Part shown: positions 21,188 to 62,696 of the stretch, piece after piece | How positions within the stretch are numbered: position 1 is the stretch's first letter | Layout of the letters: every line of letters begins with the position of its first letter | Source: Microbacterium rhizomatis | GTDB taxonomy: Bacteria; Actinomycetota; Actinomycetes; Actinomycetales; Microbacteriaceae | DNA: 64,000 bases | Assembly: GCF_008710745.1 (NCBI RefSeq) | Contig: NZ_VYSA01000001.1 | Coordinates: forward strand, 1,116,001 to 1,180,000 | Direction of reading: 5' to 3' | Program-made: the position numbers and the translations under genes | Notes under the pieces: generated by a model | Database searches by the model: none | Told to the model about the DNA's origin: nothing | Seen by the model: only the letters and a program-made list of their open reading frames with translations

Positions 21188-21213
21188 CGCCTGCGCCCGG
21201 GGCGACCCCCGCA

Positions 21214-21278
21214 CAGGAGAACTTCCCGAATCAGGATGAATAGGGAGGGGATGCTCCTGTCTCGGCGCCTTTTTCCTG
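21214..21278. repeat. Palindromic intergenic repeat, family 1 (degenerate copy)
   Basis: Left arm has CAGGAG at 21214 and CAGGATG at 21232 (18-bp step); right arm has inverted TCCTG words ending at 21259 and 21278. Same layout as the three copies near 36.6-37.8 kb but with more mismatches. Lies between convergent genes. Confidence 0.65.
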
Positions 21279-21322
21279 CTCCCGTGCGCTCGCGCCCGGG
21301 GCCGCCCCCGCACCGCGAACGT

Positions 21323-34320: not shown

Positions 34321-36528
34321 GTGAGCATCGACGACACTGAGACCTCCCGCACCTTGGCATCCCACAATTCGGCCGACGACACAGGCCTCAGGGCCGCGGA
34401 GCAGGACGGCACCGCTCAGCCGGCTGCTGCGTCGGGCTCGATGCCCGTCGCCGCTCGCGCCTCGTTCGTCCGCACTCACCACGGCGACGTGTTCGACGAT
34501 CCGTACGAGTGGCTCCGCGACAAGGACGACAGAGCGGTCATCACCCATCTCGCCGCCGAGAACGACTACACCGAGGCGCGCACCGCGCACCTCCAGCCGC
34601 TCCGCCAGAGCATCTTCGAAGAGATCAAGGGCCGTACCCTCGAGACCGATCTGTCCGTGCCCTCGCGGCGCGGGAACTGGTGGTACTACGGCCGCACCGT
34701 CGAAGGGCAGCAGTACGGCATCCATTGCCGGGCACCGATCGCCGGACCGGAGGACTGGACGCCGCCGGAGCTCTCGCCCGAGGTCGCCGTACCCGGCGAG
34801 CAGGTGCTCCTCGACGGCAACATCGAAGCGGACGGGTTCGAGTTCTTCTCGCTGGGAGCTTTCGACGTCTCCGACGACGGCCGGCGGATGCTGTTCGCCG
34901 TGGACACCACCGGCGACGAGCGTTACACGGTGCGCGTTCGCGACCTCGAGACCGGCGAGACACTCCCGGACGTGATCGCCGACGTGTTCGCCGGCGCGCA
35001 GTTCTCTCCCGACGGCGCGACGATCATCTACTCCACCGTCGACGACAAGTGGCGGCCGGACACCGTCTGGCGGCACACGGTGGGAACGGATGCGGCGTCC
35101 GATGTGACGCTCTTCCACGAGCCCGACGAACGGTTCTGGCTGGGCGCGGGGTTCACCCGGAGCGACCGCTATCTGGTGATCGGGATGGGATCTTCGATCA
35201 CCTCCGAGGAGTGGCTCGTTCCGGCTTCCGACCTGTCGGCCGAGCCGCAGGTCGTCTGGCCCCGACAGGAAGGCGTGGAGTACTCGGTCGATCACGCGAT
35301 CGTCGACGGCGAAGACGTGCTGCTCATCCTGCACAACGACGAGGCGCTGGACTTCGAGCTGGTGCGGGTCGCGGCATCCGATCCGCAGGGTGAACGCACG
35401 GTGCTGCTGCCGCACACCCCCGGCACTCGACTGCTGGATGTCGACTGCTTCCGGGACTTCGCGACGATCGAGTACCGCCGCGGCGGACTCGCTCGGATCG
35501 GCCTTCTCGACTACCGCACGGGGGCCGTGGATGAGCTCGAGTTCGACGAGCCCCTCTATACAGCAGGCTTCGGCGGCAACCGCGAGTGGGCGCCGAAGCT
35601 TCTGAGACTCGGGTACGACTCGTTCGTCACTCCGAACACCGTGTACGACTACGACCTCGCCACGCGTCACCTGCTGCTGCGCAAGCGCCAACCCGTGCTG
35701 GGTGGCTACCGGCCCGGCGACTACTCGCAGGCGCGCGTATGGGCCACGGCGAAGGACGGCACGCAGGTGCCGATCTCGCTCGTCTGGAAGCGCTCGTTCG
35801 GCGATGTCGGCGCCGCGCCGCGCCCCGTGCACCTGTACGGCTACGGCTCGTACGAGACCTCGATCGACCCGCGATTCTCCGTCGCCCGGCTCTCCGAGCT
35901 CGACCGCGGCGTCGTGTTCGCGGTCGCGCACGTGCGCGGGGGCGGTGAGATGGGCCGGCAGTGGTACGAAGACGGCAAGCTTCTGCACAAGCGCAACACG
36001 TTCACCGACTTCGTGGATGCTGCATCCCACCTCGTCGCCGAGGGCTACACGTCTCCCGACCGGCTCGTGGCCGAGGGCGGGTCAGCCGGCGGTCTGCTGA
36101 TGGGCGCCGTCGCGAACCTCGCACCCGACCTCTTCGCCGGAATCCTCGCGGAGGTGCCTTTCGTCGATGCGCTCACCTCGATCCTCGACGAGGATCTTCC
36201 GCTCACCGTCATCGAGTGGGACGAGTGGGGCGACCCCCTGCACGATCCGGAGGTGTACGCGTACATGAAGTCGTACTCGCCGTACGAGAACGTGCGAGAG
36301 GTCGCCTACCCGAAGATCCTGGCGGTGACGTCGCTGAACGACACGCGCGTCCTGTACGTGGAACCCGCGAAGTGGGTCGCGCGCCTGCGCGAGGTCGGCG
36401 CCGACGCGCTGCTGAAGTGCGAGATGGTGGCCGGGCACGGCGGCGTCTCGGGCCGCTACAACGCGTGGAAGGAACGCGCTTTGGAGCTGGCCTGGCTGCT
36501 CGACGTCCTGGGCCTCTCGGAGGCCTGA
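34321..36528 (+). CDS. ptrB: Oligopeptidase B (S9A prolyl oligopeptidase family)
   Basis: Serine peptidase of 735 residues cleaving short peptides, usually after Arg/Lys; cytoplasmic. An N-terminal seven-bladed propeller (about 60-430) caps the alpha/beta-hydrolase domain. Catalytic triad: Ser in EGGSAGGLLMG, Asp in SLNDTRV, His in AGHGGVSGR. THHGDVFDDPYEWLRDKDD is the family start region, so ~40 residues before it are an extension; GTG 34321 is supported by TAGCGT ending 6 nt upstream (leaderless), while ATG 34441 is an alternative. SHVRGGGEMGRQWYEDGK-like sequence supports oligopeptidase B. Confidence 0.92.
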   Translation: MSIDDTETSRTLASHNSADDTGLRAAEQDGTAQPAAASGSMPVAARASFVRTHHGDVFDDPYEWLRDKDDRAVITHLAAENDYTEARTAHLQPLRQSIFEEIKGRTLETDLSVPSRRGNWWYYGRTVEGQQYGIHCRAPIAGPEDWTPPELSPEVAVPGEQVLLDGNIEADGFEFFSLGAFDVSDDGRRMLFAVDTTGDERYTVRVRDLETGETLPDVIADVFAGAQFSPDGATIIYSTVDDKWRPDTVWRHTVGTDAASDVTLFHEPDERFWLGAGFTRSDRYLVIGMGSSITSEEWLVPASDLSAEPQVVWPRQEGVEYSVDHAIVDGEDVLLILHNDEALDFELVRVAASDPQGERTVLLPHTPGTRLLDVDCFRDFATIEYRRGGLARIGLLDYRTGAVDELEFDEPLYTAGFGGNREWAPKLLRLGYDSFVTPNTVYDYDLATRHLLLRKRQPVLGGYRPGDYSQARVWATAKDGTQVPISLVWKRSFGDVGAAPRPVHLYGYGSYETSIDPRFSVARLSELDRGVVFAVAHVRGGGEMGRQWYEDGKLLHKRNTFTDFVDAASHLVAEGYTSPDRLVAEGGSAGGLLMGAVANLAPDLFAGILAEVPFVDALTSILDEDLPLTVIEWDEWGDPLHDPEVYAYMKSYSPYENVREVAYPKILAVTSLNDTRVLYVEPAKWVARLREVGADALLKCEMVAGHGGVSGRYNAWKERALELAWLLDVLGLSEA

Positions 36529-36561
36529 GCCCCAGCATCCACTGTTTTCGCCCCACGGCAA

Positions 36562-36625
36562 CAGGAGAAATCACCACCGCAGGATGCTGGGCGCCTCATC
36601 CGTGCTGCACCGGCGCGTTCTCCTG
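36562..36625. repeat. Palindromic intergenic repeat, family 1, copy 1
   Basis: Left arm: CAGGAGAA at 36562 and CAGGATG at 36580, 18 bp apart. Right arm: inverted TTCTCCTG at 36618-36625 and a weaker inner word. Between the convergent peptidase and DUF559 genes. Confidence 0.75.
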
Positions 36626-36660
36626 TGCCCGCGCGGTCATCGTCGACTATCGCACGAATA

Positions 36661-36723
36661 CAGGAGAACACACGGCCACAGGATGTCCTAGGCGGATCGG
36701 TCCTGTCCTCATGCGTTCTCCTG
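36661..36723. repeat. Palindromic intergenic repeat, family 1, copy 2
   Basis: Best-preserved copy. CAGGAGAACA at 36661, CAGGATG at 36679 (18-bp step), then inverted TCCTG ending at 36705 and TTCTCCTG ending at 36723 (again 18). The arms pair over about 25 bases with few mismatches. 40 bp from the DUF559 stop codon. Confidence 0.8.
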
Positions 36724-36762
36724 CGCCCGGGCGGCGCTGGGGCGGTCGCACGTTCGCGGAGA

Positions 36763-37599
36763 TCAGCGGTGCAGCCCCTGCGCGAGAGCCGCCGACATGA
36801 TCTCAACGACGTAGTCGGGTTGGAAGAGCACCTGGTGGTAATCGAATCGGAGCACGGTATAGCCGCGAAGGCGGAGGCGTGCGTCCGCACGGAGATCTCG
36901 GCGCCGGTCGCCCGCCTGATGATGCGCGAATCCATCGAGCTGTACCGCCAGATGTGCACCGACGAGCGCGTCCACCGGGTGCCCGTCGATCCACACCTGC
37001 TGTCGGACGATGACGTCGATGCCTCGCATGAGCACGAGGAATCGGGTCTCGATGCCGGAGTCCGACAGGTCGGACGCCTCGCGGGCGATTCGGCGCGCGA
37101 CATCGCCACGCCATTCGACCCGAGCAAGCACGTCGGGCGCGACATGCTTCTTGCGGATCGCCGACTCCCATACGGCGAGGGCGTCTGCCGGCGGGGCGCA
37201 ATGAGCGACGTGATGGAGCACGTTGACCAGCGGATCGCGCATGCCGGTCGCGGCGAGGGGCGACGGGCCGCGGGACCAGTGGAGTCGCGCTCCATCCGCA
37301 TCCAACCGCGAGGCGGTCGGCGGGACCGCGAAGTGCGGAGTCGTGTGATCGGGCGTCCACAACCCGATCAGCTGCGCCTCGGTCAGGCAGGTTGTTCGAC
37401 CTCCGAGCTCGGCGGCTCGCCGGAGCAGCGGGTCGCAGCCGGGACGCGCGAGCCACGAGCGGCGAATACGGTACAGGGCGCCGCGATGAACAGCGGTCCG
37501 GATCGCGTGGACGGTGAAACCCTCAGCCTTCACGGCGTGGGAGTGAACCACGCCGCCCTTCGCCGCCACCCACTCGACGAGCTCTTCGATCGAACGCAT
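36763..37599 (-). CDS. AbiEi-type winged-helix + DUF559 (Vsr-like nuclease fold) protein
   Basis: 278 residues. The N-terminal ~60 (VEWVAAKGGVVHSHAVKAEGFTVHAIRTAVHRGALYRIRR) form a winged helix like the AbiEi antitoxin N-domain; the C-terminal ~90 match DUF559, a very-short-patch-repair-like endonuclease fold: VDALVGAHLAVQLDGFAHHQ...RRRDLRADARLRLRGYTVLRFDYHQV, with candidate catalytic Asp in VDALV, QLDG and the adjacent basic patch. Such proteins are frequent and multicopy in Actinobacteria; function is unknown. No AbiEii toxin partner is adjacent. It is surrounded by three copies of a palindromic repeat (two behind its 3' end, one ahead of its start). Confidence 0.8.
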   Translation of the reverse strand: MRSIEELVEWVAAKGGVVHSHAVKAEGFTVHAIRTAVHRGALYRIRRSWLARPGCDPLLRRAAELGGRTTCLTEAQLIGLWTPDHTTPHFAVPPTASRLDADGARLHWSRGPSPLAATGMRDPLVNVLHHVAHCAPPADALAVWESAIRKKHVAPDVLARVEWRGDVARRIAREASDLSDSGIETRFLVLMRGIDVIVRQQVWIDGHPVDALVGAHLAVQLDGFAHHQAGDRRRDLRADARLRLRGYTVLRFDYHQVLFQPDYVVEIMSAALAQGLHR

Positions 37600-37716
37600 G
37601 AGAGAGAGCCTGGTGGGACTGGGGCACCTTCGCCGACCGCCGCAGGCGATCGGTGGAGAGTCCGATCTCGGGCCGCCCTGGGAAGGAGCGGATGCAGCTC
37701 GCGGCCCGCACCAAGA

Positions 37717-37780
37717 CAGGAGGAGTCACCAGCGCAGGATGATACCGGCCGGGATCGACCTGCCTGGGTGATTCGTCCTG
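37717..37780. repeat. Palindromic intergenic repeat, family 1, copy 3
   Basis: CAGGAG at 37717 and CAGGAT at 37735 (18-bp step), inverted CCTG words ending at 37762 and 37780 (again 18). Upstream of the DUF559 gene and downstream of pfkA. Confidence 0.75.
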
Positions 37781-37817
37781 TGCGCGCGGAGCCGACCGTG
37801 GGGCCGGCCGTCCCGGG

Positions 37818-38846
37818 TCAGCCGAAGAGCGCGGCGGCCTCTTCGTAGCGGTACAGGGGCACCGTGTTGAGTTCGCCGAGTGCTTCGGCGAACGGCACGC
37901 GGACGATGTCGGTGCCGCGCATCGCGACCATCTGGCCCCACGCGCCATCGACCACCGCGTCGGCCGCGTGCAGCCCTAGGCGCGTCGCGAGCACCCGGTC
38001 GAAGCCTGAGGGCGACCCTCCGCGCTGGATGTGACCCAGTACGGTGGCTCGCGTCTCGATGCCGGTCCGGCGCTCGATCTCGGGGGCCAGCACCTCGCTG
38101 ATCCCGCCCAGCCGCGGGCGGTTGAAAGCATCGAGCCCCTTGTCGCTGTACGCCTCTTCCATGCCCGTGAGCGTGAAGCCCTCGGACACGACGACCAGCG
38201 GAGCCCGGCCGCGGTCATGCGCCTTCGTGACGAGGTCCACGATCTCGTCGATCGACTGGGGCACCTCCGGGATCAGGATGGCGTGAGCGCCCGCGGCGAT
38301 GCCGGCGTGCAGGGCGATCCAGCCCACGTGGCGACCCATGACCTCGGCGACCATGCACCGCTGGTGCGAATCCCCCGTCGTGCGCAGGCGGTCCATCGCG
38401 TCGGTCGCGATGTTGACCGCCGTGTCGAACCCGAACGAGTAGTCGGTGGCGCGCAGGTCGTTGTCGATCGTCTTGGGGACGCCCAGCACGTTGATGCCGT
38501 CCTTGGAGAGGCGGTCGGCCGCCGCGAGGGTCCCCTCGCCGCCGATCGCGATGATGCCGTCGATGTGGTGGCCGTAGAGCGTCTTCGAGATGTTCTCCGC
38601 ACCACCCCGCGGACCCTCATAGGGGTTGGTGCGGCTCGTGCCCAGAATCGTGCCGCCGACCTTCGACAGTCCCTTCACCTCGTGACGCGTGAGCGGGAAG
38701 AAGTCGCCGTCCACCACACCGCGCCAGCCGTCGCGGATGCCGACGAACTCGATGTCGTAGTTGGTGATCCCCTTGAGAACCACACCGCGGATGACGGCGT
38801 TCAGCCCGGGGCAGTCGCCGCCGCTGGTGAGGATTCCGATCTTCAT
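37818..38846 (-). CDS. pfkA: 6-phosphofructokinase
   Basis: Glycolytic kinase (fructose 6-phosphate to fructose 1,6-bisphosphate), 342 residues, full length. LTSGGDCPGLNA opens the phosphoryl-donor site, IGGEGTLAAADRL keeps Gly at the position that favours ATP over pyrophosphate, VPKTIDND carries the catalytic Asp, and MGRHVGWIALHAG and HIQRGGSPSGFDRVLATRLG form the sugar-phosphate site. The Lys of PKTIDND is shared with PPi-type enzymes, but the Gly plus Lys combination is usual for actinobacterial ATP-dependent enzymes. ATG 38846 has AAGGA upstream. Confidence 0.95.
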   Translation of the reverse strand: MKIGILTSGGDCPGLNAVIRGVVLKGITNYDIEFVGIRDGWRGVVDGDFFPLTRHEVKGLSKVGGTILGTSRTNPYEGPRGGAENISKTLYGHHIDGIIAIGGEGTLAAADRLSKDGINVLGVPKTIDNDLRATDYSFGFDTAVNIATDAMDRLRTTGDSHQRCMVAEVMGRHVGWIALHAGIAAGAHAILIPEVPQSIDEIVDLVTKAHDRGRAPLVVVSEGFTLTGMEEAYSDKGLDAFNRPRLGGISEVLAPEIERRTGIETRATVLGHIQRGGSPSGFDRVLATRLGLHAADAVVDGAWGQMVAMRGTDIVRVPFAEALGELNTVPLYRYEEAAALFG

Positions 38847-62625: not shown

Positions 62626-62696
62626 ACGTCGGAGGATGTGCCCGATGTCGGACGATCCGGGCGTAATCCTCCGACCCGAGCCCGATCCTCCGACGT
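62626..62696. repeat. Palindromic intergenic repeat, family 2, copy 2
   Basis: TCGGAGGAT at 62629 and TCGGACGAT at 62648 (19-bp step), then inverted ATCCTCCGA at 62666-62674 and 62685-62693 (also 19). Same layout as the copy at 57721. Between the convergent gntR and ispG genes. Confidence 0.82.

Follow-up and report, generated by a model that had tools for sequence, protein, structure and literature searches.

We found that a gene for an AbiEi-like, DUF559 nuclease-type protein in Microbacterium rhizomatis lies between copies of a long palindrome, and that its orthologues in the genus are almost always bracketed in the same way. Copies of the palindrome are dispersed through the genome, and many other DUF559 genes are flanked by repeats worded differently from gene to gene. 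On balance we favour the reading that gene and palindromes form a two-part module, whose nuclease recognises its own palindromes and probably copies or converts them. The window is the whole stretch analysed, 64,000 nucleotides of contig NZ_VYSA01000001.1, and its genome is referred to as G000. Its relevant features are listed below, with bit scores from model R1, whose training set included all four scored copies.

34321 to 36528, plus strand: prolyl oligopeptidase gene (Pfam PF02897/PF00326), a neighbour marking the conserved locus
36554 to 36633: palindrome copy 1, core words at 36562-36625, with the 3' ends of the prolyl oligopeptidase and DUF559 genes on either side; 60.4 bits
36653 to 36731: palindrome copy 2, core 36661-36723, with the DUF559 gene 3' end 32 bp away; 62.7 bits
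36763 to 37599, minus strand: AbiEi-like plus DUF559 (EDxHD/Vsr-type nuclease) gene, 278 amino acids, encoding the putative cognate protein of the palindromes
37709 to 37788: palindrome copy 3, core 37717-37780, on the upstream side of the DUF559 gene at a distance of 110 bp, with the phosphofructokinase gene 3' end 30 bp away; 65.1 bits
37818 to 38900, minus strand: 6-phosphofructokinase gene (Pfam PF00365), the other neighbour marking the conserved locus
21206 to 21286: palindrome copy 4, solitary and of the same family, between two convergent ORFs (simple GC-based calls); 50.1 bits
57725 to 57792: palindrome of a second family with GTCGGAGGAT words; the DUF559 gene presumed to be its cognate is found outside the window (G000:C5, about 199376-200212)
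62628 to 62694: the other copy of the GTCGGAGGAT family in the window

The original prediction described three palindromes around the gene, each arm with two CAGGA-type words 18 bp apart, and all three were located as claimed. Within each of copies 1-3, successive words are 18, 40-41 and 18 bp apart, and no copy deviates in more than one letter of its words. Copy 4 had not been listed in that prediction. An alignment with 18 other copies from the genome, to which tandem arrays contributed a few members each, showed outer CAC...GTG conserved beyond the core, giving a full unit of about 80 bp. This unit is composed of four 13-bp half-sites CAC-N5-CAGGA, two direct and two inverted. CAGGA-N13-CAGGA is found five times in the window, where shuffles give an expectation of 0.12. 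The palindromes had also been described as long hairpins. Their arms are indeed inverted; a need for each copy to pair with itself was not borne out, as arm pairing within G000 (72.9%) was the same as after column shuffling (72.7%), that is, without covariation. The long hairpins exist because the words are conserved, not because each copy must pair with itself. A role as RNA hairpin or terminator was rejected on the lack of within-genome arm covariation and of any Rfam match (covariance models against 36300-38100, none at E up to 1).

The gene had been said to encode an AbiEi-like winged helix and a DUF559 domain, and this description held. Pfam detected DUF559 (PF04480) at 1.8e-8 and otherwise solely MTES_1575, below cut-off; the AbiEi-like N-terminal part was weak by sequence (PADLOC E 0.0018) and clearer by fold. 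In an AlphaFold2 model built from a 56-row alignment (mean pLDDT 93.9), residues 181-278 matched the catalytic domain of I-Bth0305I (Z 14.4, 2.1 Å over 95 residues), followed by NGO0050 (Z 12.9) and Vsr (Z 11.7); TnsA of Tn7 (Z 7.1) was among the weaker fold matches. Residues 1-176 matched AbiEi 6y8q (Foldseek E 2e-4; VIA Z 8.2, 4.8 Å over 174 residues). Residues E184, D210, D222, H227 and D235 are invariant across 14 orthologues; among 56 relatives four of them never vary, and H227 is kept in at least 90%. Their spacing fits E73, D102, D115, H119 and D124 of VsrA (PMC12907096), the residues being matched by spacing and not by superposition. From the model we confidently predict a fusion of an EDxHD (Vsr/I-Bth0305I-type) nuclease to a DNA-binding antitoxin fold of the AbiEi type. 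No HUH/Y1 transposase appeared among the Pfam matches or best fold matches of the protein, and neither a DUF1814 (AbiEii) toxin gene nor a cytosine methyltransferase gene was found among its two immediate neighbours. A phage origin was rejected, with no protein match in 50,697 phage records, as was a plasmid origin, the 72,556 plasmid records having given two Tsukamurella matches of less than 30% identity.

Palindromes of this family are spread over the whole genome. The one-arm pattern, with up to two mismatches, gave 50 matches against 2 for a reversed-pattern control, and a covariance model gave 64 matches among the 150 candidates scored, or about 32 palindromes each counted on both strands. 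Under stricter filters, model R1, trained on G000 only, was positive in 28 of 58 related genomes, all of them Microbacterium (28 of 35, against none of the 23 others). Where the flanking genes could be classed, the gaps holding palindromes were convergent in 35 cases, tandem in 40 and divergent in 4 (n=79), where the share of intergenic bases in 18 arbitrarily chosen genus regions predicts 16/47/16 (chi-square p 6e-8, with clustered and gene-flanking elements not independent). Gene calls here were simple ORFs by codon-position GC, and 20 of 99 elements were dropped for lying inside a predicted ORF or missing a neighbour. The palindromes sit at gene 3' ends.

Some copies are arranged in tandem. 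Two arrays of five CAGGA palindromes each were seen in G000, at the end of C1 (L031 9332-10000) and at the start of C6 (L032 99-751), between the ends of decarboxylase/aminotransferase-like and polyphosphate-kinase-2-like genes, named by reading the sequence; the two are possibly one long array broken in assembly. On C2 (L034 3887-4183), three near-identical CAGGA palindromes follow one another downstream of a single gene, about 109 bp apart.

We then turn to the orthologues. A profile of the clade, run against 198 genomes of the genus, separated orthologues (at least 347 bits) from the rest (at most 314 bits) and was positive in 61 genomes. In 13 of 35 genus genomes the orthologue adjoins phosphofructokinase, in most cases with prolyl oligopeptidase on its other side; it points in the same direction as phosphofructokinase in 4 genomes and in the opposite one in 9. 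R1 palindromes were found on both sides in 12 of these 13 loci, a tally that includes the window's own locus, itself in the R1 training set; the remaining locus (G012) had them on one side. With model R2, 17 further loci were bracketed without exception (17/17), one of them, from G033, having been in the protein-profile training set while two other G033 elements were in R2. Pooled, the two sets have 29 of 30 loci bracketed. Both neighbour motifs were present in 21 of the 30, one in 5 and neither in 4, and all four of the last (L259, L266, L274, L275) were bracketed. A separate, partly overlapping named collection, counted by hand, gave both sides in 52 of 57 loci, one side in 3 and none in 2. 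These 57 are the near-full-length loci from Microbacterium or close relatives among the 67 of 68 loci searched, and several of their genomes repeat the 30-locus set; five partial loci and five from other genera were left out. Of the latter, Agromyces terreus had palindromes on both sides and Mycetocola manganoxydans on one, while the Okibacterium, Mycetocola zhadangensis and Gryllotalpicola loci had them on neither.

Since most orthologues occupy one locus, the bracketing is in part a single inherited association. Simple synteny as the whole story was rejected, as many paralogues elsewhere, in other genera too, carry differently worded repeats on either side, and the four loci lacking neighbour motifs were likewise bracketed. 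Within G000, one of five DUF559 genes lies near a CAGGA palindrome, and the pairing is therefore specific to the clade and not common to DUF559 genes at large. Lack of enrichment near DUF559 genes, named in advance as a refutation, was not what we saw: the palindrome brackets this clade, and many other DUF559 genes have palindromes of their own.

Among 22 genus genomes without the gene at the usual junction, two hold a palindrome there. In G021 there is exactly one (L166 1960-2039); in G019 the model found one (L138 2552-2631), and further degenerate ones were visible by eye. G020, likewise without a gene at the junction, has a palindrome on the other side of phosphofructokinase, and G016 and G023 yielded no clean orthologous junction. 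The gene-less palindromes at the usual locus are possibly remnants after gene loss or states preceding insertion. Truncated matches to the clade were also noted (L396, L397, L401 and G073:C1:533797-534432). In L396 and L397 palindromes persist on both sides of the truncated gene, suggesting that the gene decayed while its palindromes were kept.

Other DUF559 genes were examined by comparing the 500 bp to the left of each gene with the 500 bp to the right, for 65 genes, 60 of them belonging to the genus and 5 to organisms outside the family. A strong left/right repeat, defined as at least 35 bits by a cut-off set after the scores were seen, was present for 42 of 65 DUF559 genes and for 3 of 121 control genes (Fisher 2e-21); a rank test of the scores, in which no cut-off is used, gave p 2e-18. 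Non-orthologous DUF559 genes passed in 31 of 50 cases, against the same 3 of 121 controls (Fisher p 1e-17), and the orthologous clade in 11 of 15, the G001 orthologue having been entered twice (L160, L171). No strong common repeat was found for 23 of the 65, among them all five genes from outside the family (L186, L189, L202, L208, L219). The control ORFs, 600-1600 bp long, came from 20 regions, of which L244 and L245 lie outside the genus; the rows dropped were L136 (the window's locus), L143 (short flank) and L182, L185, L210 and L211 (no profile match). In other genera of Microbacteriaceae, taking the best DUF559 match per genome, 18 of 29 passed (p 4e-13); their repeats mostly differ in sequence, L276 and L280 being alike, as are L285 and L295. 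One control, a TetR-family regulator gene of G014 (L231 8529-9467), also lies between a pair of palindromic repeats, for which a nearby unrecognised nuclease or another family may account.

The common flank repeats are typically 50-90 bp long and often palindromic, and their words are mostly gene-specific. An ungapped symmetry test, covering the repeats of at least 45 bp apart from the 18 of other genera, was passed by 23 of 37 at p <= 0.02, the remainder being gapped, partial or non-palindromic. Two other words, both picked for their strong flank repeats, were searched genome-wide. The GTCGGAGGAT word of the C5 paralogue, with 19-bp spacing, gave 61 arm matches in G000 against none for its reversed control, or about 30 copies, of which two bracket the C5 DUF559 gene and two lie in the window. 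The TGCACGA...GGGAAC word gave 17 matches in G034 against none for the reversed control, and two palindromes bracket its gene. Together with the CAGGA family, three word families are dispersed genome-wide.

Copy number had been expected to follow the presence of the gene, and the two were found to be associated; this second proposed test did not refute the idea either. Counting strand-wise matches among the 23 candidates scored per genome, the 61 genomes with an orthologue had a median of at least 23 palindrome matches and a minimum of 4, so that none had zero, whereas the 137 without an orthologue had a median of 4, with zero in 41 and at least 10 in 47 (Mann-Whitney p 2e-18, treating genomes as independent and ignoring kinship). 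Eight genomes with no clade-profile match at 1e-20 gave 2, 12, 2, 0, 0, 0, 0 and 2 matches; two of the eight, G023 and G024, have one DUF559 domain match each. The number of DUF559 genes was 1-6 in seven R1-negative genus genomes and 1-7 in 28 R1-positive ones, with a lower mean in the negatives, and on its own it fails to separate the two groups.

The palindromes also have dialects. Dispersed copies most often resembled the gene-flanking copies of their own genome, which ranked first of 13 for 42 of 68 copies (11 genomes); the mean score was 29.7, compared with 15.8 in permutations, none of 10,000 of which reached the observed value. The test covered genomes with flanking copies, the array loci L031 and L032 being omitted. 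Across genomes, unlike within G000, arm covariation is strong (0.323 against 0.157, with pairing of 78.3% against 67.6%), which fits half-sites worded by genome-specific dialects. This suggests that the half-sites follow a common recogniser; burst and decay of a perfect palindrome would look similar, and the covariation is therefore no proof of recognition.

Word divergence among 26 orthologues was correlated with divergence of the winged helix (partial r 0.34, p 0.002) and of the middle domain (partial r 0.33, p 0.0005), and not with that of the nuclease (partial r -0.10, p 0.81). By this sequence comparison, the wording of the palindromes tracks the AbiEi-like part and not the nuclease. No recognition helix was indicated when 192 single protein columns were compared with the words: the distribution of the 60 top columns was about the same as that of all columns tested, 36 falling in the middle domain (of 95), 13 in the nuclease (of 58) and 11 in the winged helix (of 39).

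From these observations we infer how such a module might work. The AbiEi-like part, a winged helix plus a second domain, would bind the 13-bp half-sites, with a dimer or tetramer probably occupying the double palindrome of about 63-80 bp. The EDxHD/Vsr-type nuclease would nick or cut DNA at or near the bound palindrome, and repair off another copy would convert or duplicate palindromes. They could in this way spread to tolerated sites, the gene 3' ends, with wording kept uniform within a genome, and each paralogue, having a different binding specificity, would maintain its own palindrome family around its gene. By analogy, a fusion of AbiEi with an EDxHD nuclease would be a natural fit to so long a site, as the sites of AbiEi proteins are paired inverted repeats of 23 bp (PMC7319586) and a review describes I-Bth0305I as dimerising on a target nearly 60 bp long (PMC3943268). 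We regard cognate recognition of the palindromes by their nuclease as very likely; copying or conversion driven by the nuclease seems to us evenly balanced between true and false. No palindrome movement was observed, and neither a target duplication nor an isogenic empty site was found. Also weighing against the module are the 47 orthologue-free genomes with at least 10 matches, the 23 DUF559 genes without a strong flank repeat, the concentration of orthologues at one locus, the lack of arm covariation within G000 and the failure of single columns to indicate a recognition helix. A more tentative proposal, towards which we are slightly sceptical, is that AbiEi-EDxHD proteins constitute a nuclease class of a new kind that propagates repeats, seeding private long-site words by cut and repair.

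Three other explanations were weighed. The palindromes could be the ends of an autonomous transposable unit, and the solitary ones its internally deleted (MITE-like) copies. Such an element would be bracketed at both gene ends, could turn up at loci with neither usual neighbour motif (4 of 30 orthologues) and in either orientation at the usual locus (4 versus 9), and might leave behind a gene-less palindrome, like that of G021 or the one found by the model in G019; TnsA of Tn7 is moreover among the weaker fold matches. We nevertheless think it unlikely, as the usual locus is conserved across many species, the CAGGA word pairs with a single one of the five DUF559 genes of G000, no target duplications were seen, and the phage and plasmid searches gave, respectively, nothing and two distant matches.

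Somewhat less probable still is an operator role, the palindromes serving as binding sites for autorepression by the AbiEi-like domain, or for its action as a global regulator or architectural protein, with the nuclease incidental. AbiEi autoregulates through inverted repeats (PMC7319586), one palindrome does lie upstream of the DUF559 gene, 110 bp away, and the wording tracks the AbiEi-like part. An operator sits poorly with palindromes behind the gene as well, with five-copy arrays, with invariant nuclease residues and with the preference for gene 3' ends (35/40/4) over promoter-only gaps. We give equally little credence to the notion of palindromes that act as bidirectional terminators, or that some other enzyme has spread as REP-like repeats, with DUF559 genes tending to land among them. 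Their position at gene 3' ends, their retention in many genomes without an orthologue and the random TetR control gene between similar repeats would all agree with a bystander role; it does not account for differently worded repeats on both sides of many paralogues, nor for dispersed copies that follow the gene-flanking wording of their own genome. The two-part module of nuclease and palindromes remains the reading we prefer.

The closest parallel is the REPtron, a TnpA-REP/RAYT transposase with its REPs (PMC8266576, PMC3733652, PMC2817692). The original prediction had pointed to this resemblance with a non-transposase protein, and for the architecture it holds. As in a REPtron, there is usually one gene copy per repeat family, the gene lies beside its repeats, cognate repeats occur between genes, repeat copy number is linked to the gene, and protein and repeat co-evolve. 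The parts are different: AbiEi plus an EDxHD nuclease in place of an HUH (Y1) transposase, and a palindrome of about 80 bp with four half-sites in place of one of 20-40 bp with a GTAG/CGTC tag at one end. That tag was absent from the 80-bp consensus in alignments read by eye.

I-Bth0305I, an EDxHD homing endonuclease, provides the best nuclease fold match (Z 14.4) and is reported in a review to have a long, dimer-bound target (PMC3943268). Unlike in a homing system, no intron or intein was apparent around the present gene, nor does the gene appear to break up its own site: complete palindromes flank it and occur elsewhere, and a solo palindrome stands at the gene-less junction of G021. With the AbiEi antitoxin of the type IV toxin-antitoxin system AbiE, which binds paired inverted repeats (PMC7319586), the protein shares an alignable fold (residues 1-176); it differs in its nuclease fusion, in having no adjoining DUF1814 toxin gene and in sites dispersed at gene 3' ends. 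Vsr and VsrA, a DUF559 protein of Caulobacter (PMC12907096), share the nuclease fold, with active-site residues at comparable intervals, but here no cytosine methyltransferase adjoins the gene, and the sites are long palindromes and not short methylated motifs. In our searches of open PMC papers we found no description of a pairing of AbiEi-DUF559 genes with palindromes. It looks like an enzyme-plus-repeat partnership of a new kind.

If this is correct, a function would be given to an uncharacterised group of AbiEi-like plus DUF559 proteins that is common in Microbacteriaceae, and a share of the intergenic palindromes in these genomes would be explained. The REP/RAYT way of life would have arisen again out of unrelated parts, and the repeats would offer a case, open to test at the bench, of a nuclease that might multiply its own sites with no transposase involved. 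Microbacteriaceae, with dozens of independent nuclease/palindrome pairs, would amount to a library of long-site DNA recognition provided by nature. Many paralogues come with a target word that can be read from the sequence, and this would open the code from protein to DNA word to direct study.

Finally, we looked at one dispersed site, the 3' end of glyS. An R2 palindrome was present there in 3 of 30 loci (G000, G028, G033), a set in which the 3' end was unreadable at two loci and a contig boundary interrupts L309. Insertion edges or target duplications could not be defined at this site, the DNA around the empty loci being too diverged. Other, differently worded palindromes were seen by eye after glyS in several species (G034, G025 and G018, among loci L305-L334), suggesting that several palindrome families use common 3'-end sites.
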